A stretch of DNA of 64,000 nt from Lysobacter sp. M2-1 (GTDB lineage: Bacteria; Pseudomonadota; Gammaproteobacteria; Xanthomonadales; Xanthomonadaceae). The stretch is taken from contig NZ_JAKPBU010000001.1 in the NCBI RefSeq assembly GCF_022662495.1, forward strand, positions 1,550,001 to 1,614,000. The letters run 5' to 3'. A program made the position numbers and the translations under genes. This document shows, piece by piece, positions 7,814 through 34,981 of this stretch (its first letter is position 1; every line of letters starts with the position of its first letter). The notes beneath the pieces are model-generated. The model ran no database searches, had not been told where the DNA came from, and saw nothing but the letters and a program-made list of their open reading frames with translations.

Positions 7814-7827
7814 TGTTAGCGCTAACA
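7814..7827. promoter_or_regulatory. XylR-type operator before xylB
   Basis: TGTTAGCGCTAACA is a perfect 14-bp palindrome with the central CG step typical of LacI-family operators. It differs by one base from the xyl-box described for Xanthomonas XylR (TGGTAGCGCTAACA). It lies 79 bases before the xylB start, within the otherwise empty 429-base stretch 7478-7906. The likely regulator is the LacI-type protein encoded at 11211-12299. Confidence 0.88.
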
Positions 7828-21331: not shown

Positions 21332-22369
21332 CTAGCGGGGAAACCCGAGGCCGGTCGCGTTCACCCGGACGCGCGCTAGGAAGGTATGCGAGCTCATGTA
21401 GAGCGTTCGGCCGTCATCGCCGAAGGCGCAGTTCGAAACCGCGGTGCCGGTCTCGATGCGCCCCAGGCGCTTGCCGTCGGCGTCGAACACGAGCACGCCG
21501 CCGGGCCCCGTCGCAAAGATGCGGCCGTCGCCGGAGACGGCCATGCCGTCGGGCAGCCCCGGGCTGGCTTCGCCGACAAGGTCGGATGCATCGGCGAACA
21601 CGCGTTTGTCGAGCACGGCGCCGCGGGCATCGAGCGCGTACGCCATCCACACCGGTCTGGCCGGGTCCGAGTTGGATACGTACAGGGTGCGCTCGTCCGG
21701 CGACAATGCGATTCCATTCGGAAAGCTGAGCCCGTCGTCCAGCAAGTGGACCGTGCCATCCGGGTCGACCCGATAAACGCCATTGAACTTCAGTTCCTTG
21801 ACCGGTGATTCGTCGAGGTCCTTCAGGCCGTAGGGCGGATCGGTGAAGAACACCGCCCCGTCGCTGCGCCGCACGACATCGTTCGGGCTGTTGAATCGGT
21901 GCCCGTCGTAGCTGGAGGCGAGCGCGGTCTTGCGCTTCGTCGCCGGATCGAGTCTGGCCACGATGCGCGTTCCGGAGTCCGCCATCAGCACCGTTCCCGA
22001 GGGTTCGGCAAACAAGCCGTTGGCGCCCGGTTCGCGCAAGGCGCCCAGGTCGGGACCGTCGTAGCCCGAGGGCTTGAGGAACACCGATAGCCCATCGCGT
22101 TCCGACCAGCGATACAGCGTGTTCTCGGGCACGTCCGTGAACAGCAGATAGCCCCCGGCCCGGATCCAGGCCGGGCCTTCGGACCAGGTGAAGCCTTCGG
22201 CGATCTTCTCGATGCGCGCGTCCGCCGCCACGACATCCTGGAAGGACGCGTCGAATGTCGTCAGGCGCCCGATCGCGGGAGAGTGCTGCGGTGGCGCTTC
22301 GGCCGTCGCGCAGGCGGCCAGCATCGCCAGCAGCGGGATCGCAAAAGCAGAGCGGGGCAGGTGGCTCAT
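21332..22369 (-). CDS. SMP-30/gluconolactonase-family lipoprotein
   Basis: This 345-residue six-bladed beta-propeller of the SMP-30/gluconolactonase/LRE family hydrolyses sugar lactones with a divalent metal. Metal and active-site segments are recognisable: FTWSEGPAWI (Glu), FNSPNDVVRRSDG (Asn-Asp), and LSFPNGIALSPDE (Asn). A signal peptide ends with the lipobox LAAC, so it is probably an outer-membrane-anchored periplasmic lipoprotein. The ATG at 22369 follows AGGAGAATCCCG. It is the last gene of the minus-strand group after the halogenase. Aldonolactone or xylonolactone hydrolysis would fit the locus but is not shown. Confidence 0.86.
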   Translation of the reverse strand: MSHLPRSAFAIPLLAMLAACATAEAPPQHSPAIGRLTTFDASFQDVVAADARIEKIAEGFTWSEGPAWIRAGGYLLFTDVPENTLYRWSERDGLSVFLKPSGYDGPDLGALREPGANGLFAEPSGTVLMADSGTRIVARLDPATKRKTALASSYDGHRFNSPNDVVRRSDGAVFFTDPPYGLKDLDESPVKELKFNGVYRVDPDGTVHLLDDGLSFPNGIALSPDERTLYVSNSDPARPVWMAYALDARGAVLDKRVFADASDLVGEASPGLPDGMAVSGDGRIFATGPGGVLVFDADGKRLGRIETGTAVSNCAFGDDGRTLYMSSHTFLARVRVNATGLGFPR

Positions 22370-22484
22370 CGGGATTCTCCTGCGGATCGCCCACACGGCT
22401 TCCGGCGCCGGACAGGTCGGTGTCGTTGGCAATGGCAGCCGCGATACGAGAGTCTTGGCCAGATCATCGAAGCCTCTTGTGTAT

Positions 22485-23999
22485 TCAAACCCGCTTCCCC
22501 CTGCCTTCCCATACTTCGGGAGGCGCCTTGCAGTAGCGTTCGATGAATTCCTGCTGCGGCGGCATCTGCGTCACCACGCGCGAGATCGGCTGCCGGATCG
22601 AGTCCAGCAGGTTTCGCAGGTCCGCATCCGACAGCGCCCGCGCCAGGGGATGGTGCTGCTCCGGCACGATACCCTGGCCAAGCAGGACGTGGGTCCACGA
22701 ATCCAGCCGGAACAGCTCGTCCGCGCCCTGCCACGCGTGGGCGCGCTCGCGCCACGCGCGCAAGCGGATCGACAACGACTCGGGCAGGTCCATTTCGCGG
22801 CACTGCTTCCACATCGGTTCGTCGCGCTGGTTGGCGTGGTAGTGCAGGATGATGAAGTCGCGCACGTGTTCCATCTCGGCGCGGCTGACGTCGTTGTAGA
22901 GGTCGACCAGCGACGGTGCGATGCCGTCGAAGGGAAACAGCTGGATCAGGCGCACTACGGCGCTGATGGCGAGGTGGATGCTGGTCGACTCCAGGGGTTC
23001 GATGAAGCCGCTGGCCAGGCCAAGCGAAACCACGTTCTTGTTCCAGGCCTTCAGCCTGCGGCCAGTGCGGAACGGCACCAGCCAGGGATCCTTGATCGGC
23101 CGCGCACCGACGTCGCGTAATAGCTTGGCCCGAGCTTCGTCGTCGGACATGTGACGGCTGGAGAAGACGAGTCCGCAGCCGACACGGTGCTGCAGCGGGA
23201 TATGCCAGCGCCAGCCGGCCTCGTGCGCGATCGCGCGCGTGTACGGCACCGGCGGGCCGATCGATTCGGTCTGCACCGCCACAGCACGATCGCTGGGCAG
23301 CCAGTGGTTCCAGTCTTCGTAGCCGGTGTGCAGGGCCTGTTCGATCAGCAGGCCGCGGAAGCCGGTGCAGTCGATGAACAGGTCGCCCTCCACGATCTGT
23401 CCATCCTCCAGCACCAGCGCTTCGATGGACCCGCTTTGCGAGTGCTGCCTGACCTCACGAATCTTGCCTTCGACGCGTTTCAGTCCGTAGCCCTCGGAGA
23501 TACGGCGCAGGAAGCGCGCGTAAAGGCCGGCGTCGAAATGGTAGGCGTAGTTGACCTGGGGCTGTGTTTGAAGCGCGAACTGATCGCCGCGCGAAGCAAC
23601 GGTTTCCAGGCAGAAGTCGCCCAGTTCAGATTGCATGCCGCGACGCAGACTGTCCAGCCAGAAATGATGGAAAGGACAGACCAGGGTGCCCTGCCCGGTG
23701 ATGCCGAATGGATGGATATAGCGCTCGCCTGGCCGGCGCCAGTTCTCGAAGGAAATGGAGAGCTTGAAGGTGCCGGCGACCGCGCGAAGGAACTCCTGCT
23801 CGTCGATCTGCAGGAAGCGGTGGAACGTGCGGATCGGCGGTACCGTGGATTCGCCGACGCCGACGGTGCCGATCTGCTCCGACTCGACCAGGGTGATGTC
23901 CAGCCGGTCGCGAAACTGATGCGACAGCGCACAGGCGGCAAGCCAACCAGCGGTGCCGCCGCCCGCGATCACTACCTTGCGTATCTGCCCGGTCTCCAA
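22485..23999 (-). CDS. Flavin-dependent tryptophan-halogenase-family protein
   Basis: This 504-residue protein has the full signature of two-component FADH2-dependent halogenases. The FAD motif is GGGTAGW (residues 13-19). The catalytic lysine is Lys79 (GTFKLS), at the same position as in PrnA. The WxWxIP motif is W263-R-W265-H-I-P, and the active-site Glu is 334 in FIEPLESTS. All catalytic positions are kept, so halogenation of indole or tryptophan-like substrates is plausible. The start is a TTG at 23999 with AGGGGA five bases upstream. It lies 34 bases after the JmjC-like gene. Relatives in Xanthomonas, Caulobacter and Brevundimonas are often beside TonB receptors, and some brominate free indole. 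A cognate flavin reductase is not in the window. Confidence 0.93.
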   Translation of the reverse strand: METGQIRKVVIAGGGTAGWLAACALSHQFRDRLDITLVESEQIGTVGVGESTVPPIRTFHRFLQIDEQEFLRAVAGTFKLSISFENWRRPGERYIHPFGITGQGTLVCPFHHFWLDSLRRGMQSELGDFCLETVASRGDQFALQTQPQVNYAYHFDAGLYARFLRRISEGYGLKRVEGKIREVRQHSQSGSIEALVLEDGQIVEGDLFIDCTGFRGLLIEQALHTGYEDWNHWLPSDRAVAVQTESIGPPVPYTRAIAHEAGWRWHIPLQHRVGCGLVFSSRHMSDDEARAKLLRDVGARPIKDPWLVPFRTGRRLKAWNKNVVSLGLASGFIEPLESTSIHLAISAVVRLIQLFPFDGIAPSLVDLYNDVSRAEMEHVRDFIILHYHANQRDEPMWKQCREMDLPESLSIRLRAWRERAHAWQGADELFRLDSWTHVLLGQGIVPEQHHPLARALSDADLRNLLDSIRQPISRVVTQMPPQQEFIERYCKAPPEVWEGRGKRV

Positions 24000-24033
24000 T
24001 GCGGTCCCCTTGATGCGTGCCGGCGCAGCCGGC

Positions 24034-25056
24034 TCAACGGTTGAGTTTGCCGATCAGCATCGCGCGGATCTGGCGTGCCAGCGCATCGTCCACGGGTCCC
24101 AGCACCTTGCGCGCCGCTGTAGGCAGGTGCTCGCCGGCGCGTTCGCCGGGCCCGAAGACGTAGTAGTCGAAGACCTGACGCCAGGCCTGCTTTTCGCGCT
24201 CCGGGCGGTCGCGGATCGTCCACAACGCGTGTTGCAGCGCGAGCACCGGCGCCGGAATGTGTGCCGGCACGCTGCTCCACCAGTAGTTCACCAGCACGTT
24301 GAATGGCTCCAGCCCCTGCACATGGTGCCACCACAGGCTGGGAATGAAGATCGCATCGCCCGGTTCCAACACCGCGCTTTGTCCCGCCGCGAGCGCTTCG
24401 CGAAAGCGCGGATAGCGCTCGAAGTCGGGCGCGTCAAAATCGACCACGCTGACCGCCTGGCCGCCGGGCGTGGGCTCCAGCGGACCTGGATACAGGTTGC
24501 CGATCTGGTCCGGCGGAAACAAGGTGAAGCGGCGACGCCCGACCGCACAGCAGGCGATGTTGTTCTGCGCGTCGTAATGGCAGGACGCGGTCACGCGGTT
24601 GCCGATCCAGATGCTCGGCGGCGCGTGGATGCCGTGCGCGGCGAGGTCGAGGTCGTTCTCCGCGCGCAAGCCCGGTAGGCGCGTATCGACCAGCAGCGAG
24701 GCGAGGTACCAGGTCGGCGGCCGTGGGTCGTCGGCGTGCGCGGCGATCGCATCGAGCACCTCGTCCAGCGCGCCGCGCCGTACTTCGATGTTCAAGGCGG
24801 TGAAGTCGTCGTTGTAGAAAGGCCGCCCGGCGATCTCCGGGCCGCCGTAGGAGTAGGTCACCGGCTGGCCGTTCCAGGCGCCGCGCAACACGTCCATCGC
24901 CGCATCCATGCCGCGCTGGCCGGCGCGGACCAGGCCCCAGTCGCGCGCCACGCCGCGCAGCACCGCGGGCTGGCCAGCGGCGAGCAGTTCGGCCAGCGGC
25001 AACGTGCCGGGCCGGCAGTCCGGCACCTCGCGCACGCTGGCGGCGGCCGCGGCCAT
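24034..25056 (-). CDS. Cupin-like (JmjC/cupin_8) Fe(II)/2-oxoglutarate oxygenase-like protein
   Basis: This 340-residue protein has the double-stranded beta-helix of the cupin_8/FIH-like JmjC family. The iron facial triad is visible as His160-x-Asp162 (SCHYDAQNN) and His244 in LWWHHVQ. FPPDQIGNLYPGPL and AVLEPGDAIFIPSLWW are the conserved pre-triad segments of the family. Members hydroxylate side chains of proteins or small molecules using 2-oxoglutarate. It follows SapC after five bases and precedes the halogenase, an arrangement repeatedly seen behind TonB receptors in Caulobacter and Xanthomonas relatives. The target is unknown. Confidence 0.88.
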   Translation of the reverse strand: MAAAAASVREVPDCRPGTLPLAELLAAGQPAVLRGVARDWGLVRAGQRGMDAAMDVLRGAWNGQPVTYSYGGPEIAGRPFYNDDFTALNIEVRRGALDEVLDAIAAHADDPRPPTWYLASLLVDTRLPGLRAENDLDLAAHGIHAPPSIWIGNRVTASCHYDAQNNIACCAVGRRRFTLFPPDQIGNLYPGPLEPTPGGQAVSVVDFDAPDFERYPRFREALAAGQSAVLEPGDAIFIPSLWWHHVQGLEPFNVLVNYWWSSVPAHIPAPVLALQHALWTIRDRPEREKQAWRQVFDYYVFGPGERAGEHLPTAARKVLGPVDDALARQIRAMLIGKLNR

Positions 25057-25061
25057 CGCGC

Positions 25062-25808
25062 TCAGGCCGCCGCGGCGTCCTGCTGGCGCAGACGGCGCTG
25101 CTTTTCCGCCATCAGCCTGCGCAGGTTGTGCATCGAGCCCAGCATCAGGTACGCGCCTTCGAGATAGCCGCTGCGGTGCAGCCGGTGCAGTGCGTCGGCG
25201 TCGAGTGCGGCCAGGCGTTCGCGGTCGATGCCGTGCAGTCCGGTCAGGCTCGCGCCGTGCTGCCCGTCGAACTTCAGTTCGACGTTCATCGGCTGGATCA
25301 GGCCCAGCTCATCGAATGCGGCGAACATCGCCGTGCCGGCCTCGGCGCCGTCACGGATGCCGCGCAGCACGGTGATGACGTGTTCCAGGTAAGGACTGTG
25401 GCCACCGTGCGGCAGGAACACCGCCTCGCCTTCGCCCGCGCCGATGCGCGGGTGTTCCATGTCGACGTGTATCACCGGCTCCTTGCGCAGTTCGCCGTCG
25501 ACGGTCTGTTCCTGGAAACCGATCAGGAACGGCCCGCGCGCGACGTAACCGGGCAGGTAGCCGGCGTTCCAGCGGTCCTCGCGCAGGAACAGGTTTTCGT
25601 TCGCCTCGAAGCCGAGCAGCGCGACCGCCTGCCATTGCCCGCCATCGCGCTCGCGGCGCAGGAAGATCGGGTATTCGCGCTGCAGCTCTGCGAACTCGGT
25701 GGGGAACGCCGGCACCATGCCGACCTCGTCGCCAAACGCGCGACCGAAGCCGGTGACGATACGCAAGTCCTTGTGCGTCACATTGTTGAGCAGTTCGTAT
25801 CTGGCCAT
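25062..25808 (-). CDS. SapC-family protein
   Basis: This 248-residue SapC-family protein opens MARYELLNNVTHKDLRI, with the conserved FPTEFAELQREYPIFLR and LGFEANENLFL segments. The name comes from a Campylobacter S-layer secretion operon, but most members are of unknown function and lie next to TonB receptors, JmjC-like cupins and halogenases, as here. No signal peptide or membrane segment is seen, so it should be cytoplasmic. I use Met at 25808; the open frame extends to 25907 but enters the upstream terminator hairpin. Confidence 0.88.
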   Translation of the reverse strand: MARYELLNNVTHKDLRIVTGFGRAFGDEVGMVPAFPTEFAELQREYPIFLRRERDGGQWQAVALLGFEANENLFLREDRWNAGYLPGYVARGPFLIGFQEQTVDGELRKEPVIHVDMEHPRIGAGEGEAVFLPHGGHSPYLEHVITVLRGIRDGAEAGTAMFAAFDELGLIQPMNVELKFDGQHGASLTGLHGIDRERLAALDADALHRLHRSGYLEGAYLMLGSMHNLRRLMAEKQRRLRQQDAAAA

Positions 25809-25860
25809 GCGGGTTCGACTGCGGAGCCGGCGCGGGACACCGTTATGCCCCGCGCCAGCG

Positions 25861-25897
25861 GAAAAAGAAAGGGGACCACTGCCTGCGCAGCGGTCCC
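25861..25897 (-). terminator. Intrinsic terminator between receptor and sapC
   Basis: Reading the minus strand, an 11-bp stem with one mismatch (GGGACCGCTGC with GCAGTGGTCCC) is followed directly by CTTTCTTTTTC. It lies 24 bases after the TonB-receptor stop. This is the clearest intrinsic terminator in the window. It should lower sapC-cupin-halogenase expression relative to the receptor. Confidence 0.75.
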
Positions 25898-25920
25898 GTT
25901 CCGTCACGACATGCCAAGAC

Positions 25921-28900
25921 TCAGAACTTGTAGCGGACCCCGATCATGTAACGCGGGTTCTGGTCCAGCAGCTTGATGACCTGCTCGTCGGTGCGGCCGT
26001 GCCAGCGCACGTCCTCGCCGGTCAGGTTGATTACCTCGAAGCCGGCAGACCAGTGGTCATTGAACGCGTAGTTCACGTTCAGGTCCCACTGCTGATAGGC
26101 CTCGACGTAGAACGGATTGCGGCTGCCGCCCTGGTTGGCCATGATCAGGTACTCGTCGCGCCAGTTCCAGGCCAGGCGTGCGGACCAGCCGTACTTCTCG
26201 AACATGAAGGCGGCGTTGGCGCTGTCGCTCAGGCCGGTCAGCGAGAATTGGTCGATGCCCGGGTCGCCGCCGTCGTCGAAGCCCACGTCGCCCTTGACGA
26301 TGGTGTAGTTGGCGAAGATGCCGAACCCGCTATCGCCGAAGAAGTGCTGGCCGGCCAGTTCCCAGCCATGCAGTCCGGCCTTGTGCTGGTTGACCGGCTT
26401 GTTGACGTCGAACATGTACAGCGGGTCGTCGGCTTCGCCGACCAGGTTGTAGGCATTCTCCGTCGCCAGCGCCTGCGCGTCGGTGCCGTCGAAGGCTGCC
26501 AGCCCGGCCGGATCGTTGCGCAGCAATGCCGTCGCGGTGAACAGCGAAGTGTCGTTGGCCGAACAGGCCGCGGCATTGGCCGCGCCGACCTGGTCCACGC
26601 AGGCCTGGCTAGTCAGGAAGGCCAGCGCCGCCTGCGCGTCGGGACCGGACGTCGGGTCGGTCAATCCGTACAGGTTCTCGCGGACGACGGAGTTGCCGAC
26701 GAAGTTGTCGACCGTCTTGCGCCAGTAGGTCGCCGCGATGAAGCTTGCGTCGTCGAAGTACCACTCCAGCGCCAGATCCAGGTTTTCCGATTCCAGCGGC
26801 AGCAGCCCCGGGTCCTGCGCGCTGCCGGTGGCGCGGGTGGACGGGTCGGTGAGGATCGAGCCGCTCGGGGCGTTCGGGCCCGGGCCCGCATAGAGGTTGC
26901 CGTAGGGCGCGCGTGCGATGGTCTTGCCGAACGAGGCGCGGCCCTTCAGCTCGTCGGTGAAGTCGATGCTGAAGTCCAGATTCGGCAACACGTAGCTGTA
27001 GCTGGCCTTCTCGCTGAACGGCTGCGTCTCGGCGGAACGGACGATGCGGAAATCATTGTTGGCCTGCCATTCGATCGCGCTGGGAATTGCCACCGCCGAG
27101 GTCGAGACCACATCGGTCTTCTCGTAGCGCACGCCGATCCGGGTGGCCGTCGGCATGCCGCCCAGTTCGCCCTCGAAGTCGACCTGCACATAGGCAGAGT
27201 TCGTCTTTTCCTCGACCCGGTTGTCGGCGGCGAGCACGTCGCTGACGCTGTTGCTGACACCATAGTGCTCGGCGGCCCATCGTGCCAGGTCGTTGGCGTC
27301 GCCGGCCCAGGCGCCCTGCGCCGCGCCGGAACCGTCGTAGTCGTCGAACAGGCCGACGATGCTGATCGGGTGCAGCAGTCCGATCAGGCCGTTGGCGCCG
27401 TCCTCTTCCACGTTGGCCACGCCCCAGTCGCCGAGGGCGGCATACATCTGGTTGGCCTGCAGGCGATGGGTCGATGACTTCGTGTTGTCGACACCGAACT
27501 GGAAGCGGCCATTGTCGAAGTTCCATTCGCCGTCGACGCGGGCCTGCTTGATCTCGCTGATCTGGGTCTGCGACTCGATCCGCAGCACCTGCGAGCCGAG
27601 CTCGCCCGGGGCGAAGTCGGCATTGATCACGCCGTTGGTCCCGGCGAGGGCATCGGCCTGGGTCGGATACCAGGTGCGCGCGGAGATGGGTAGGCCGTTG
27701 TTGAACCAGTACTCCTGGGCGTAGTAGCCGCCGCAGTGCGCGCTGGCGCTGCAGTTGTTGGTGCCGGCCAGGCTGAAGTAGGTGGCGCCACCGCCGGTCA
27801 GCGGGTCGTTGGGCCGGCTCTCGTTCTTGGAGTCGTGCATGTCGAGGCTGAGACGGAGACGGTCGTTGACGTCCCATGCGGCGTTGAAGCCGAGCGAACC
27901 GAGCTTGTACTTCTGCCGGTTGCTCTGCTGCTCGAGGCCGAAGTCCTTGGTCTGGACGATCTCGCGGATGTACACCGGCGTGGCCACGGCCCCGCTGGTG
28001 TCGAACTCGACGTCGGTGTATTGGCTGTTCTGCAGCCACATGCCCTGCTCGCCGCGGTCCTCGGCGATCTCATTGGTCGAGTAGGTGTAGTCCAGGGTCA
28101 GGGTGACGCTGTCGACCGGTGCGAACTGGATCACGGCCTGGCCGTTGATACGCTCGCGCTCGAAATCGGCGAAGGCATAGCGCAGGTCGTTAGGCCGACC
28201 GTATAGCTCGCCGAGCCCCGGCGCGTTGACCACGTCGGGGCCGCCCGGCATCGAGCCGGTCCACGGCTGGATGTTCCAGTTGTTCTCGGTTGCCTGCACC
28301 GAACCGCCCTTGCGCTTCTGATAGCTGGCGTTCAAGCCGATGCCGAAGGTCTTGTCGGGATTGGTCCAGCTGAAGATGCCGGACAGTTCCGGGGTCGCGT
28401 CGTCGCCTTCGAACGGCTGTGACTTGTCGTAGCCCAGCTTGGCGCCGGCGCTGGCGACCACGCCGGAGTGGTTGAGCGGCTTGTCGGTGAGGATGTTGAT
28501 GGTGGCGCCGATGCCGCCGCTGGGCACGTGCGCCTGGCCGGTCTTGTAGACCTCGATGCCGTTGATCGCCTCGGAGGCCAGCTGGGCGAAGTTGAACGCG
28601 CGGGTGCCGCCGTCCACGCCGCCAACCGGCACCTGGCCGGCTGCGCCGAAGGCATCGGCGCCGGGGATCTGGCGGCCGTTGAGGGTGACCATGTTGAACT
28701 GCGGGCCGAAGCCGCGCGCGGTGACCTGCGCGCCTTCGCCATCGCGGCGCTCGATCGAGATGCCGGTGATGCGCTGCAGCGACTCGGCCAGGTTGGTGTC
28801 GGGGAACTTGCCGATATCCTCGGCGCTGATCGCGTCGACCACGCCGGCAGCGTTGCGCTTGGTGTTCATCGAGTGCGCGAGCGCGTTGCGCATGCCGGTG

Positions 28901-29106
28901 ACCACGACCGTATCGAGCGTGGTCGCGTCGGCCGGCGTCGGCGACGGCTGCGCCTGCTCGGTCTGCTCGGCCTGCTCCGTCTGCAATGCCGGCGGCGGTG
29001 CCTGCTGCGCCTGCGTGTCCTGGGCGAACGCAGGATTGATGACGATCACACCACCGATGATGGTGAACATGGCCTTCGATTTGAATCGCTTCAGCTTCTG
29101 ATTCAT
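25921..29106 (-). CDS. TonB-dependent receptor for plant oligosaccharides
   Basis: This 1061-residue outer-membrane receptor has a signal peptide ending NPAFAQ and a Gln/Glu/Pro-rich linker (residues 30-60). The TonB box is TLDTVVVTG (63-71). The plug domain spans about 75-190 (IGKFPDTNLAESLQRITGIS, ARGFGPQFNMVTLNGRQIPG), and the 22-strand barrel ends in the C-terminal aromatic RYKF. It matches the TonB-dependent receptors of Xanthomonas CUT loci. With the tandem XylR-type boxes upstream it probably imports xylan fragments. It begins the minus-strand group receptor-sapC-cupin-halogenase-lactonase, although a terminator follows it. Confidence 0.95.
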   Translation of the reverse strand: MNQKLKRFKSKAMFTIIGGVIVINPAFAQDTQAQQAPPPALQTEQAEQTEQAQPSPTPADATTLDTVVVTGMRNALAHSMNTKRNAAGVVDAISAEDIGKFPDTNLAESLQRITGISIERRDGEGAQVTARGFGPQFNMVTLNGRQIPGADAFGAAGQVPVGGVDGGTRAFNFAQLASEAINGIEVYKTGQAHVPSGGIGATINILTDKPLNHSGVVASAGAKLGYDKSQPFEGDDATPELSGIFSWTNPDKTFGIGLNASYQKRKGGSVQATENNWNIQPWTGSMPGGPDVVNAPGLGELYGRPNDLRYAFADFERERINGQAVIQFAPVDSVTLTLDYTYSTNEIAEDRGEQGMWLQNSQYTDVEFDTSGAVATPVYIREIVQTKDFGLEQQSNRQKYKLGSLGFNAAWDVNDRLRLSLDMHDSKNESRPNDPLTGGGATYFSLAGTNNCSASAHCGGYYAQEYWFNNGLPISARTWYPTQADALAGTNGVINADFAPGELGSQVLRIESQTQISEIKQARVDGEWNFDNGRFQFGVDNTKSSTHRLQANQMYAALGDWGVANVEEDGANGLIGLLHPISIVGLFDDYDGSGAAQGAWAGDANDLARWAAEHYGVSNSVSDVLAADNRVEEKTNSAYVQVDFEGELGGMPTATRIGVRYEKTDVVSTSAVAIPSAIEWQANNDFRIVRSAETQPFSEKASYSYVLPNLDFSIDFTDELKGRASFGKTIARAPYGNLYAGPGPNAPSGSILTDPSTRATGSAQDPGLLPLESENLDLALEWYFDDASFIAATYWRKTVDNFVGNSVVRENLYGLTDPTSGPDAQAALAFLTSQACVDQVGAANAAACSANDTSLFTATALLRNDPAGLAAFDGTDAQALATENAYNLVGEADDPLYMFDVNKPVNQHKAGLHGWELAGQHFFGDSGFGIFANYTIVKGDVGFDDGGDPGIDQFSLTGLSDSANAAFMFEKYGWSARLAWNWRDEYLIMANQGGSRNPFYVEAYQQWDLNVNYAFNDHWSAGFEVINLTGEDVRWHGRTDEQVIKLLDQNPRYMIGVRYKF

Positions 29107-29463: not shown

Positions 29464-29477
29464 TGATAGCGCTATCA
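29464..29477. promoter_or_regulatory. XylR-type box 2 between receptor and transporter
   Basis: TGATAGCGCTATCA is a perfect 14-bp palindrome with the same AGCGCT core as the xylB operator. It stands 212 bases before the transporter start and 357 bases before the receptor start, so long leaders or additional promoters are implied. Confidence 0.8.
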
Positions 29478-29689: not shown

Positions 29690-31174
29690 ATGAACGACGT
29701 CGCGCAAACCCTCTCCGTACGCGAAAAGGTCGGCTACAGCCTCGGCGACCTGGCGGCCAACCTGATCTTCCAGACCCTGGTCACCTTCATCGCGTTCTTC
29801 TACACCGACGTTTACCGGATTCCGGCCGACGTCGCCGGCACGGTGATCTTCACCGGCGGCCTGCTCGGCGCCTTCGTGTTCACGCCGATGATGGGGCTGA
29901 TCGCCGACCGCACCCGCACGCGCTGGGGCAAGTTCCGGCCATGGATCCTGTGGACGGCGATTCCATTCGGAGTGCTGTCGCTCCTCGCCTTCAGCACTCC
30001 GGACCTGGGCGAGCGCGGCAAGGTCATCTACGCGATGGCGACCTATACCTTGCTGGTGCTGGTGTACGCCGCCAACAACCTGCCGTATTCGGCGCTCAGC
30101 GGCGTGCTGACTGGCGACATGGCCCAGCGCAACAGCCTGTCCTCCTACCGCTTCGTCGCGGTGATGATCGCGCAGTTCATCATCCAGGCCCTACTGCTGC
30201 CGCTGGTGCTGATCCTCGGCGACGGCGATAAGGTGCGCGGCTTCGAGAACACCATGCTGGTGTTCGCCGTGATGGGCACGATCTTCTTCCTGATCACCTT
30301 CCTGACCACGAAGGAGCGCATCGTCCCGGCGCCCGAGCAGAAGTCGACCATCCGCCAGGACCTGGCCGACCTGGCGAAGAACACGCCATGGCAAGTGATG
30401 CTGGTGCTGACCGTGCTGGTCTTCGTGACCCTTGCCCTGAAGGGCGGCCTGTACGTGTACTACTTCAAGTACTACCTCGATGAAGCCGCGCTGGCGAACT
30501 TCCTCGAGAACGTCGGCTTCAACCGCCTCATCGCCGGGTTGAACACGGTGCTCACCGGCGTGGGCCTGACCGAGTTCCAATGGCCGAAGGACGCGCCGAC
30601 CTCGGCCTTCAGCCTGTTCAACGGCAGCGGCATCATCTTCATGATCGTCGGCATCGGTTTCTCCAAGGGCCTGGCCGACCGCTTCGGCAAGCGCGACGTG
30701 TTCGGCGGCGGATTGTTCGTCTCGACCTTGTGCCTGCTGGCGTTTTGGCTGTTCCCGCCGCAGGCGGTGGGCCTCGCGGTCGCGGCCCAGGTCCTGCACG
30801 GCTTTTTCTACGGCATCACGATCCCGCTGCTGTGGGCGATGGTGGCCGACGTGGCCGATTATTCGGAATGGAAGAACCACCGCCGCGCCACCGCGATCGT
30901 GTTCTCCGCGATCCTGATCGGCCTGAAGATCGGTCTGAGCACGGGCAGCGCGCTGGTGGCGAAGATCCTGGCCGCCTACGGCTACGACCCCGACCTCGCC
31001 GTGCAGTCGGCCGGTGCCGTGCGCGGTATCCAGATGGCGGTGAGCGTGTACGCATCGATCCCGTTCCTGCTGTGCGTCGCGCTTCTGTTCTTCTACAAGA
31101 TCGACAAGAAGGCCGAGACGCGCATCGAGCAGGAACTGGCCGCGCGCCGCGCCGCGGGCATCGCGACTCCCTGA
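29690..31174 (+). CDS. GPH-family (MFS) sugar transporter
   Basis: This 494-residue inner-membrane carrier belongs to the glycoside-pentoside-hexuronide cation symporter family. The N terminus VREKVGYSLGDLAANLIFQT is the GPH signature, followed by the loop DRTRTRWGKFRPWILW. About twelve membrane segments are seen. An extra polar stretch at about residues 260-305 lies between the central helices and lengthens the protein relative to MelB-type members. It most likely imports xylose or short xylo-oligosaccharides with a cation. The ATG at 29690 lacks a good SD. The cytoplasmic GH43 gene follows after 28 bases, so they form one operon under the tandem boxes. Confidence 0.92.
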   Translation: MNDVAQTLSVREKVGYSLGDLAANLIFQTLVTFIAFFYTDVYRIPADVAGTVIFTGGLLGAFVFTPMMGLIADRTRTRWGKFRPWILWTAIPFGVLSLLAFSTPDLGERGKVIYAMATYTLLVLVYAANNLPYSALSGVLTGDMAQRNSLSSYRFVAVMIAQFIIQALLLPLVLILGDGDKVRGFENTMLVFAVMGTIFFLITFLTTKERIVPAPEQKSTIRQDLADLAKNTPWQVMLVLTVLVFVTLALKGGLYVYYFKYYLDEAALANFLENVGFNRLIAGLNTVLTGVGLTEFQWPKDAPTSAFSLFNGSGIIFMIVGIGFSKGLADRFGKRDVFGGGLFVSTLCLLAFWLFPPQAVGLAVAAQVLHGFFYGITIPLLWAMVADVADYSEWKNHRRATAIVFSAILIGLKIGLSTGSALVAKILAAYGYDPDLAVQSAGAVRGIQMAVSVYASIPFLLCVALLFFYKIDKKAETRIEQELAARRAAGIATP

Positions 31175-32320: not shown

Positions 32321-33049
32321 TCAGGCGTGCGCCGCCCAGGCCGGCGATCCTGCGACGTAATCGATGCAAGGGTCGTAGCGGCCCGGCACCTCGGTATAGC
32401 GCAGCGCCTGGGTGCAGCCGATCTCGGAAGTGAAGTAGCCCAGCAGAGCGAGCTCCTTCATCATGCGGAAGAACGTGGCTGGCTCGACTGGAGCGTCGGA
32501 AGTGATCTCTTCCGCTTCGATGGAATCGTACGGAGGCAGCTGCGCCAGGCCCTGGCGCTTGCGGTCTTCTGCCTCCGTCTCGTACGCCTCCCGGTGTGCC
32601 TGGCGATCGAAGGCGGTCAGCACGGCCAGGCGTTGCTGAGGCGTGGCCTGCATGAACGGCACGTTGGCCGCCTTCGTCGCGGCGGCGTCGACCCGGCGCA
32701 TGCCGTCGCGGAAAGTTTTCTGTTCGCCGGGGTCGTAGCAGTCGGTGACCATGAGCGCCATGAACGCGCCGACTTTCGCATCCTTCGCGCCCGGAGTCCT
32801 GGTGGCGGGAACGATCGTTTCCGCGACCTCGTCGAGGAACGCGATTTCCTGGGAGCTGAACTGGCCAAGACGCGTGTTGGCCGGGACGCTTGCCGCCTTT
32901 TCTGCCGCCTTCTCCACGTCCTCCACGCGGCCGCAGCCGATCAGCGCCGCGCCGCCGAGCAGCAGGCTCACGCGTCGGATCGCCTCGCGCCGGGTGATCG
33001 TCGGGGCCTGTTCGGATTCGGATGGCATGGGTTGAGAGGACATGTTCAT
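32321..33049 (-). CDS. Gluconate 2-dehydrogenase subunit-3-like protein, Tat/lipoprotein signal
   Basis: This small partner subunit of GMC-type dehydrogenases carries a twin-arginine signal (TITRREAIRRVSLLLGGAAL) ending in a lipobox IGC. The mature protein would therefore be exported and possibly lipid-anchored. The body (FSSQEIAFLDEVAETIVPAT, then ALLGYFTSEIGCTQALRY) is characteristic of gluconate 2-dehydrogenase subunit 3. A GTG at 33064 overlaps the GMC stop (GTGA) and is an alternative start; the ATG at 33049 is used here. It should stabilise the FAD subunit and carry it through the Tat system. Confidence 0.88.
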   Translation of the reverse strand: MNMSSQPMPSESEQAPTITRREAIRRVSLLLGGAALIGCGRVEDVEKAAEKAASVPANTRLGQFSSQEIAFLDEVAETIVPATRTPGAKDAKVGAFMALMVTDCYDPGEQKTFRDGMRRVDAAATKAANVPFMQATPQQRLAVLTAFDRQAHREAYETEAEDRKRQGLAQLPPYDSIEAEEITSDAPVEPATFFRMMKELALLGYFTSEIGCTQALRYTEVPGRYDPCIDYVAGSPAWAAHA

Positions 33050-33060
33050 GTCGGCCCCGG

Positions 33061-34743
33061 TCACAGGTTGCGGCGCTTGAGCTCGTCCACGGCGAAGTTG
33101 GCCGCACGGGCGGTGATCGCCATGTACGTCAGCGAAGGATTCTGGCAGGCGGAGGAGGTCATGCAGGCGCCATCGGTCACGAAAACGTTGGGGGCGTCCC
33201 AGACCTGGTTGTGCGCGTTGAGCACCGAGGTCTTGGGATCGCGCCCCATGCGCGCGGTGCCCATCTCATGGATCGCCATCCCGGGGTAGGAGCCTTCGTC
33301 GTAGGTCTTGACCTTCTTCACGCCGGCCTGCTCGAGCATCTGCGCCATGTCGTCGATCATGTCCTTGCGCATCAGGCGCTCGTTCTCCCCGAGCGCGCAA
33401 TCGATCTTCAGCACCGGCAGGCCCCATTTGTCCTTCTTCTCCGGGTCAAGCGCGATGTGGTTGGAATGCGCAGGCAGCATCTCGGCGAACGCGGTGGAGC
33501 CGATCGTCCATGGCCCCGGTGTGGTCGCCTCGTCCTTCATCTCGGCACCGATCCCGAGCTCACGCACCGCGCGCTGCCAGCCCTGCCGGCTCGCGCCACC
33601 CTGGTAGCCGAAACCGCGCAGATACTCGCGCTTGTCGCCGAACAGGTTGCGATAGCGCGGAATGTAGAACCCGGTCGGTCGGCGGCCGTAGTAGTACTTG
33701 CCTGTCAGGCCTTCGATCTCGCCTTCCGCACCGCAGCGGAAATGATGGTCCATGAGATTGTGACCGAGTTCCCCCGAGCTGCTGCCAAGCCCGCCCGGCC
33801 ACACGTCGGTCGCCGAGCGCATCAGCAGCCAAGTCGAATTGAGCGTGGACGCGCACAGGAACACGATCTTCGCGCTGTAGTCGGTGACCTGCTCGGTCAC
33901 CGCATCGATGACGCGCACTCCGCTGGCGCGCTTGCCGGTCTTGTCGAGCAGGACCTCGGTGACGATCGACCAGGGCTTGAGCGTGAGCCGGCCGGTCTTC
34001 ATCGCCGCCGGCAGCGTGGACGACTGGGTGCTGAAATAGGCGCCGTACGGGCAGCCCAGCCAGCAGGCGTTGCGATACTGGCAGGGCGCGCGCCCAGGCA
34101 GTGCCTGGGTGGCGTTCGCGGTGCGCCCCGGGATGATCCGGCGCTTGCCGCCGAACGCGTTGCGCAGGCGTCCGGCAACCAGCTCTTCACCGCAGTTCAG
34201 CGGCATCGCCGGCTGGAACTGGCCATCGGGAAGCTGCGCCATGCCCTCGCGGGATCCGGCAATGCCGGCGTGCCTTTCCACGTGGTCGTACCAGGGCGCA
34301 AGGTCGGCGTAGCGGATCGGCCAATCGACAGCCACGCCTTCCTTTTCGTTGGCCTCGAAGTCGAAATCGCTCCAGCGATAGCTCTGGCGGCCCCACAGCA
34401 ACGAGCGCCCGCCCACCCGGTAACTGCGGAACCAGTCGAAGCGCTTCACCTCGGTGTACGGCGATTCCTGTTCGTTGACCCAGGCCGACTCGTTGGTCTC
34501 GTCCAGGAGGTCCCGCTTGAGCACGCTGTGCGCCTGCTCCATCGAATAGGTGGCCCTGCCGCGATGCAGATACTCCCAGGGCGCCTTGGTCGCGTTGACG
34601 TAGTCCTTGATGTGCTCGACGTTGCGGCCACGCTCCAGGAGCAGGACGCGCAAGCCCTTCTCGGTGAGCTCCTTGGCCGCCCAACCGCCGGAGATGCCTG
34701 ATCCGACCACGATTGCGTCGTAATCTGTGGATTGCGCCACCAT
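33061..34743 (-). CDS. GMC oxidoreductase, FAD-dependent sugar dehydrogenase
   Basis: This 560-residue flavoprotein has the N-terminal Rossmann motif VVGSGISGGWAAKEL, a mid-protein Cys-rich stretch (CQYRNACWLGCPYGAYF), and the C-terminal active-site region ending SSACQNPSLTYMAITA. It has no signal peptide of its own, as expected for catalytic subunits exported with a Tat-bearing subunit 3. SD GGAGG lies just before the ATG at 34743; the frame is open to 34962 but without signals. With subunit 3 encoded downstream, it resembles periplasmic glucoside 3-dehydrogenases and other sugar dehydrogenases. The cytochrome c subunit present in some complexes is absent here. Confidence 0.9.
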   Translation of the reverse strand: MVAQSTDYDAIVVGSGISGGWAAKELTEKGLRVLLLERGRNVEHIKDYVNATKAPWEYLHRGRATYSMEQAHSVLKRDLLDETNESAWVNEQESPYTEVKRFDWFRSYRVGGRSLLWGRQSYRWSDFDFEANEKEGVAVDWPIRYADLAPWYDHVERHAGIAGSREGMAQLPDGQFQPAMPLNCGEELVAGRLRNAFGGKRRIIPGRTANATQALPGRAPCQYRNACWLGCPYGAYFSTQSSTLPAAMKTGRLTLKPWSIVTEVLLDKTGKRASGVRVIDAVTEQVTDYSAKIVFLCASTLNSTWLLMRSATDVWPGGLGSSSGELGHNLMDHHFRCGAEGEIEGLTGKYYYGRRPTGFYIPRYRNLFGDKREYLRGFGYQGGASRQGWQRAVRELGIGAEMKDEATTPGPWTIGSTAFAEMLPAHSNHIALDPEKKDKWGLPVLKIDCALGENERLMRKDMIDDMAQMLEQAGVKKVKTYDEGSYPGMAIHEMGTARMGRDPKTSVLNAHNQVWDAPNVFVTDGACMTSSACQNPSLTYMAITARAANFAVDELKRRNL

Positions 34744-34981
34744 TGCCTCCGGGAAATTGACGAGGGACAAGCGCTGGATGCGTGCGCGTGATGCTATCGT
34801 ATTTTCCGGATGAATGACTTGCGAGAAGCGATGCCCGCCTTCGGCTCGACTGCTTGCCGACTGCTGTCGCGTCCGTCCGCTGATTTTGCAGAGCGGCGAC
34901 GCAGACGCCTGGGCACGATCGGGTTCGGAGCACGCACGATGCTTTCGGTCCTGCCCCTTCACTCAAACGAAAGAGTCCGCC

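Follow-up and report, generated by a model that had tools for sequence, protein, structure and literature searches.

Among solved structures, those nearest to the flavin-dependent halogenase described here are Xcc4156 (6y1w), which is the closest in sequence, 9luq and BrvH (6frl). In vitro, bromination of free indole derivatives has been described for both Xcc4156 and BrvH (PMC7336383, PMC5945002). The active site of Xcc4156 is open, from which its authors, who gave the native substrates as unknown, suggested peptides (PMC7336383). The accessible parts of the two papers make no link to a TonB receptor, and the word 'TonB' is absent from the accessible text of the BrvH paper (PMC7336383, PMC5945002). 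Modification of a protein by a related type of enzyme is described from the qhp operon, in which the FDH-like flavoprotein QhpG modifies a protein Trp while the protein is still in the cytoplasm, ahead of its export to the periplasm (PMC7876137). In C. fetus, sapCDEF belong to the locus for the S-layer (PMC4943207). No paper joining halogenase, TonB and SapC was found in the open literature, and papers containing both 'tryptophan halogenase' and 'TonB-dependent' looked unrelated by title and abstract.

The stretch of DNA analysed here, hereafter the window, comprises 64,000 nucleotides of the Lysobacter sp. M2-1 genome and includes a run of genes for a TonB-dependent receptor, a SapC-family protein, a FIH-like cupin_8 protein, a flavin-dependent halogenase and an SMP-30/gluconolactonase-like lipoprotein (Table 1), whose five reading frames match Pfam or NCBIfam models with E-values of 1e-18 to 1e-230. 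All five lie on one strand where the original prediction, made from the sequence alone, had placed them, with gaps of exactly 5 bases between SapC and cupin_8 and 34 bases between cupin_8 and halogenase. Its label of a xylan locus was also right, as XylB, XylA, a LacI regulator, two GH43 proteins, a GH3 beta-xylosidase and a GPH symporter are encoded in the same locus, which is a xylan/xylose locus. The SMP-30 lactonase, which had been listed with the other genes, was ruled out as a cassette member, being present in 3/80 related loci and never adjoining the cassette. Downstream in the window (32321-34770) are a GMC-type sugar oxidoreductase and a small Tat-signal-like neighbour; the oxidoreductase and the SMP-30 lipoprotein may form a periplasmic sugar-oxidation/lactonase module separate from the halogenase cassette.

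Table 1. Genes and candidate regulatory elements of the receptor locus (positions in the window)
Feature	Positions	Strand	Remarks
TonB-dependent receptor, TIGR01782 (TonB-Xanth-Caul), 1061 aa	25921..29106	-	E 1e-230
Terminator-like hairpin, 11-bp stem, CTTTCTTTTT tail	25872..25897	-	between receptor stop codon and SapC
SapC-family protein (PF07277), 248 aa	25062..25808	-	ORF 25907-25062; 25808 the more likely start
FIH-like JmjC/cupin_8 protein (PF13621), putative 2-oxoglutarate hydroxylase, 340 aa	24034..25056	-	
Flavin-dependent halogenase, F2 type (PF04820), 504 aa	22485..23999	-	
SMP-30/gluconolactonase-like lipoprotein	21332..22369	-	ORF 22432-21332; 22369 the more likely start; LAAC lipobox by eye
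GPH-family (MFS_2) sugar symporter	29690..31174	+	divergent from receptor
xyl-box-like palindrome TGATAGCGCTATCA	29464..29477	.	between receptor and divergent GPH symporter
Second xyl-box-like palindrome TGTTAGCGCTAACA	7814..7827	.	upstream of xylB

Regulation by sugar is suggested by the palindrome TGNTAGCGCTANCA, which gives four strand-matches, corresponding to two sites, in the window, where 0.15 strand-matches are expected. It resembles the Xanthomonas xyl-box TGGTAGCGCTAACA (PMC7748154, PMC10380989), with two mismatches at 29464 and one at 7814, and the same xyl-box-like pattern is found upstream of or near orthologous receptors. At the sequence level, these candidate operators have the arrangement of the XylR/xyl-box regulon, in which TGGTAGCGCTAACA lies upstream of the regulated gene. 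Because the receptor promoter carries such an operator, the receptor and its cassette are probably induced by xylose or xylan. Order and strand bear out the receptor-first gene run that had been predicted, but not an evenly transcribed operon: the hairpin at 25897-25872 splits the receptor from SapC, and the receptor is therefore not simply the first gene of such a unit. A terminator-like hairpin within 130 nt after the stop codon was found for 24/82 receptors with a labelled downstream gene, against 0.4 expected from shuffles. The one behind the window receptor could keep the enzymes scarce, in catalytic amounts, and the receptor plentiful. Such a ratio would be as expected for catalytic action on the receptor, although there are other possible reasons for it.

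The window halogenase has the features of a variant A flavin-dependent halogenase (PF04820), retaining GGGTAG at the FAD site (GxGxxG), the catalytic lysine K79, the Glu/Ser pair E337-S338 and WRWHIP (WxWxIP), and the halogenase residues are kept as originally proposed. Its substrate loops are short, as in Xcc4156, with loop regions that are ungapped against 6y1w, and it lacks the long substrate loop closing over Trp that marks free-tryptophan halogenases. The tree of the halogenase family contains two groups, F2, which is canonical and encoded behind the cupin, and F1, a separate clade encoded between receptor and SapC. F2 members have K79 in 61/61 and ESTS in 56/61 cases, whereas F1 members keep K79 but read WxWDIG instead of WxWxIP and EASA instead of ESTS, so that the proline of the first motif and the Ser of the active site are both lost. 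Because of these replacements F1 may not halogenate, and it may act instead as a monooxygenase or a non-catalytic partner. This clade is found between receptor and SapC at many loci (in L049-L128, and for example L041:8454-9992).

Xcc4156 nests within the F2 cassette halogenases and 9luq within receptor-halogenase pairs, while BrvH groups, with weaker support than the other two placements, beside triple sets divergent from a receptor; all three appear from this tree to fall among receptor-linked enzymes. The loci near which BrvH groups (L180, L209, L219, L229 and L232) encode two to four halogenase-family proteins, often together with cupin_8, divergent from one receptor, and three of them (L219, L229 and L232) have a xyl-box-like palindrome beside the receptor.

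The cupin_8 protein has the HxD...H pattern of FIH-like Fe(II)/2OG hydroxylases. Its metal triad (H160, D162 and H244), correctly predicted to be kept, is invariant in 47/47 relatives together with N166 and R175, and these five residues align to H199, D201, H279, N205 and K214 of FIH. Its best PDB relatives are FIH, followed by JMJD5 and JMJD7, which are known protein hydroxylases. R175 occupies the position of the 2OG-binding K214 of FIH and is a plausible substitute for that lysine in binding the 2OG carboxylate. The flavoprotein and the cupin could alternatively be redox, flavin or iron/2OG sensors, or chaperones for receptor assembly, as the motif losses in the F1 paralogue might suggest, but the retention of K79 and ESTS in F2 and of the cupin triad in all relatives makes such a non-enzymatic role improbable.

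SapC (PF07277; 226 bits against a Pfam gathering score of 28.9) has an AlphaFold2 model with a pLDDT of 97.1, whose fold gave no significant match to the PDB with Foldseek (best E 0.04, TM 0.13) or to viral model libraries, making this protein a good target for structure determination. No signal peptide was seen in it by eye. Outside the cassette, about 10 of the 34 SapC genes examined adjoin RTX, TPS or autotransporter proteins, OEP/HlyD secretion genes, a SecA-like gene or other TBDRs (L129, L132, L133, L140, L147, L148, L151, L152 and L164, with one SecA-like gene accompanied by M50/HlyD).

A frequent fourth partner in the cassette is DUF6445 (PF20043; for example L040:6849-7559 on the minus strand), which has an invariant HxD...GGT...H...GRLT pattern that is typical of 2-oxoglutarate Fe(II) oxygenases of the prolyl-4-hydroxylase type. 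Against Pfam it gave one weak match to 2OG-FeII_Oxy_3 (E 0.095), and its profile had no match among PDB sequences.

The genome-wide scan was seeded with the halogenase, and an even sample of 150 evenly drawn Pseudomonadota genomes was therefore added. Strong, full-length PF04820 genes are present in 14/150 genomes and number 55, of which 46 (45 and the window's own) adjoin a TonB receptor, meaning a receptor within 700 bp either directly or through cassette genes; the remaining nine comprise four with a receptor within 8 kb and five with none. Chance alone would give adjacency in a few per cent of cases (about 44 receptor-like candidates among about 3,500 genes, the gene number being estimated from genome size). 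The 80 named loci of the genome-wide scan, which come from Alpha-, Beta- and Gammaproteobacteria, have the recurrent orders T-S-C-F(-D), T-F-S-C-F, T-F-F and T-F, where T is the receptor, S SapC, C cupin_8, F the halogenase family and D DUF6445.

The genome of Lysobacter sp. M2-1 itself (3.88 Mb) encodes seven full halogenase-family proteins, two SapC, two cupin_8 and ten TIGR01782 receptors over cut-off. As SapC and cupin_8 are confined to two loci, each beside a receptor and a halogenase, their linkage is far above chance, and the survey as a whole shows that the link between halogenase and receptor is real and wide. Of the seven halogenase-family genes, five have a receptor as neighbour, either directly or with cassette genes in between. 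Another is 7 kb away from a MalA-like receptor, in a locus of starch type that also has DUF6445, and the last has no receptor nearby. The linked receptors belong to two unrelated barrel families and to different sugars. One of the five (L038:8947-13651) is beside an Oar-like receptor (PF25183), whose barrel belongs to a different family, and a putative glucoamylase-type hydrolase is encoded in the same locus.

Co-inheritance with the receptor is visible in a tree of 145 receptors, in which all SapC-linked TIGR01782 receptors, and the window receptor with them, are found in one supported branch of 68. Within this cassette branch 65/68 receptors are linked, and one of the other three lies at a contig edge. 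Over the whole tree the linkage label needs 11 changes, so halogenase-only linkage has been gained or lost several times elsewhere. Across 53 cassettes, pairwise distances of the receptor correlate with those of the F2 halogenase (0.67) and SapC (0.65), values that ignore species relatedness. It is very improbable that the enzymes serve some other metabolism and are tied to the receptor only through a common sugar promoter. The hairpin between receptor and enzymes could be cited for this idea, but it is largely refuted by the order kept across three classes, the inheritance together with a single receptor branch and the 46/55 adjacency. Linkage across related genomes, which the original prediction had named as one test that could refute it, is thus conserved, and its proposal of a halogenating and hydroxylating set tied to a polysaccharide receptor gains support from three classes.

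No convincing conserved small ORF (18-95 aa) was found beside the cassette, which leaves it without the conserved precursor peptide gene of a RiPP cluster and speaks against the secreted peptide that had been offered as one substrate, and no exporter, further biosynthesis gene or other gene family recurs there. As no peptide, exporter or other gene is conserved with the cassette, the receptor is its only recurrent protein partner. A different exported or periplasmic target in the receptor's regulon, such as a loosely linked peptide, TonB or a sugar hydrolase, would fit with the occurrence of SapC beside RTX, TPS and autotransporter proteins and with one F1-SapC-DUF6445 set that has no receptor in the fetched region, but it is unlikely, since the sugar genes around the cassette differ between loci and the receptor is constant. 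The set without a receptor (L158:7915-11002) lies next to genes resembling those for a sigma factor and FecR.

The main rival explanation is that the enzymes halogenate and hydroxylate a small molecule, either a diffusible indole or phenol metabolite or an aromatic ligand entering through the receptor. The bromination of free indole derivatives by Xcc4156 and BrvH is in its favour, as are the feruloyl groups that xylan can carry. It is nevertheless rather doubtful, because the same enzymes are found beside starch-type, GlcNAc-type and xylan receptors and beside unrelated receptor families, several paralogues occur per genome, each tied to a single receptor, and no exporter or further biosynthesis gene recurs with them. 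The indole-type signals that had been suggested as substrates are disfavoured in the same way, as plant aromatics would not be expected with the starch-type and GlcNAc-type receptors.

We therefore favour, with a probability of roughly 0.4, the reading that the four genes encode a receptor and its own cytosolic modification cassette, which would act on the receptor precursor before export. That the cassette is real, widespread and dedicated to receptors follows from the survey; we infer that its enzymes are active, that they are located in the cytosol and that the receptor is their substrate. SapC, the FIH-like enzyme and the halogenase would all work on the receptor precursor while it is unfolded, ahead of Sec export or in the course of it: SapC would hold or present the exported protein, the FIH-like hydroxylase would oxidise a side chain of the Asn, Asp or His type, and the flavin halogenase would brominate, chlorinate or hydroxylate a Trp. 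At other loci the second halogenase-family protein, F1, and the DUF6445 oxygenase may join the modification. Residues altered in this way would come to lie in the extracellular half of the barrel, possibly affecting ligand binding, loop stability, or phage or host recognition.

Modification of the receptor is supported by the 46/55 adjacency, the single SapC-linked branch, the distance correlations and the receptor as sole recurrent partner, and also by the presence in one genome of seven halogenase-family genes and linked receptors of two unrelated barrel families with different sugars. By analogy, it is consistent with the protein hydroxylases related to the cupin, the short loops of Xcc4156 type, the precedent of QhpG, the position of SapC beside exported surface proteins and secretion machines outside the cassette, and the S-layer sapCDEF of C. 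fetus. Evidence on the other side includes the arginine at the 2OG-binding lysine position of FIH and the 9/55 halogenase-family genes that are not receptor-adjacent. Cytosolic modification is also unusual for proteins that Sec exports, which counts against it as well.

A target residue was sought in the receptor, which scores 768 bits against TIGR01782 (curated cut-off 310 bits) and has an AlphaFold2 model with a pLDDT of 88.5 and a barrel of 22 strands as counted on the model. The cassette branch conserves five Trp (277, 357, 561, 680 and 982) and several Asn, including N981 beside W982, all of which are less frequent in receptors without the linkage. All five Trp are on the extracellular side of the model, but with 65% of barrel residues on that side this has a probability of about 0.12 by chance, so that in the model their placement appears within chance, and Trp on the extracellular side are what sugar-binding sites need anyway. 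The best target candidate common to all halogenase-linked receptor classes is W357, which looked promising as a Trp that tracks the halogenase (1.00 vs 0.26) but failed when 10 phylogenetically independent pairs were compared (3.8 vs 1.0, median p 0.375, not significant). Other differential columns were rejected as targets, being features of the receptor branch. These results weigh against modification of the receptor; a receptor protein is still the best fit of the three substrates originally put forward, while the search for its target Trp gave no significant result.

The survey places the halogenases mostly in one receptor-centred gene context, which they have in common with SapC and DUF6445. 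Xcc4156 and BrvH are described as brominases of unknown native substrate, and SapC and DUF6445 are families without an assigned function. We tentatively extend the receptor-modification reading to many Proteobacteria, in which it is possible that nutrient receptors are halogenated and/or hydroxylated on specific side chains before export by dedicated cytosolic enzymes, with SapC as precursor handler, and that this is the native role of brominases of the Xcc4156/BrvH type. If true, this would be enzymatic halogenation of an outer-membrane protein, and would explain a gene family that is repeated up to eight times per genome.

Compared with described systems, the window halogenase resembles Xcc4156 (6y1w) and BrvH (6frl) in sequence and Xcc4156 in its short loops, its own activity being predicted. 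With the RiPP Trp halogenases of MibH type it would share, by analogy, an open active site and a substrate at the peptide level (PMC5945002); it differs in that no precursor peptide gene (18-95 aa ORFs) was found with the window cassette, and the identity between Xcc4156 and MibH is given as only 26% (PMC7336383). The likeness to QhpG lies in an FDH-like flavoprotein encoded beside an exported protein, whose Trp QhpG modifies, and in a weak match of the window halogenase to NF049967, but its 25.5 bits are far under the 240-bit cut-off of that model, and QhpG hydroxylates a cofactor precursor and has a context of radical-SAM protein and protease. The cupin_8 protein shares with FIH, JMJD5 and JMJD7 the HxD...H triad, the equivalent of N205 and the double-stranded beta-helix region, and differs from them in having R for the 2OG-binding K214 and in being bacterial and encoded beside a receptor. 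The locus as a whole is most like the Xanthomonas CUT loci (PMC1790865) and the XylR regulon, with a TBDR, a GPH symporter, glycoside hydrolases, a LacI regulator and a xyl-box-like operator; the CUT-locus paper makes no mention of a halogenase or SapC (PMC1790865), and the difference here is that a putative modification cassette is inserted behind the receptor.
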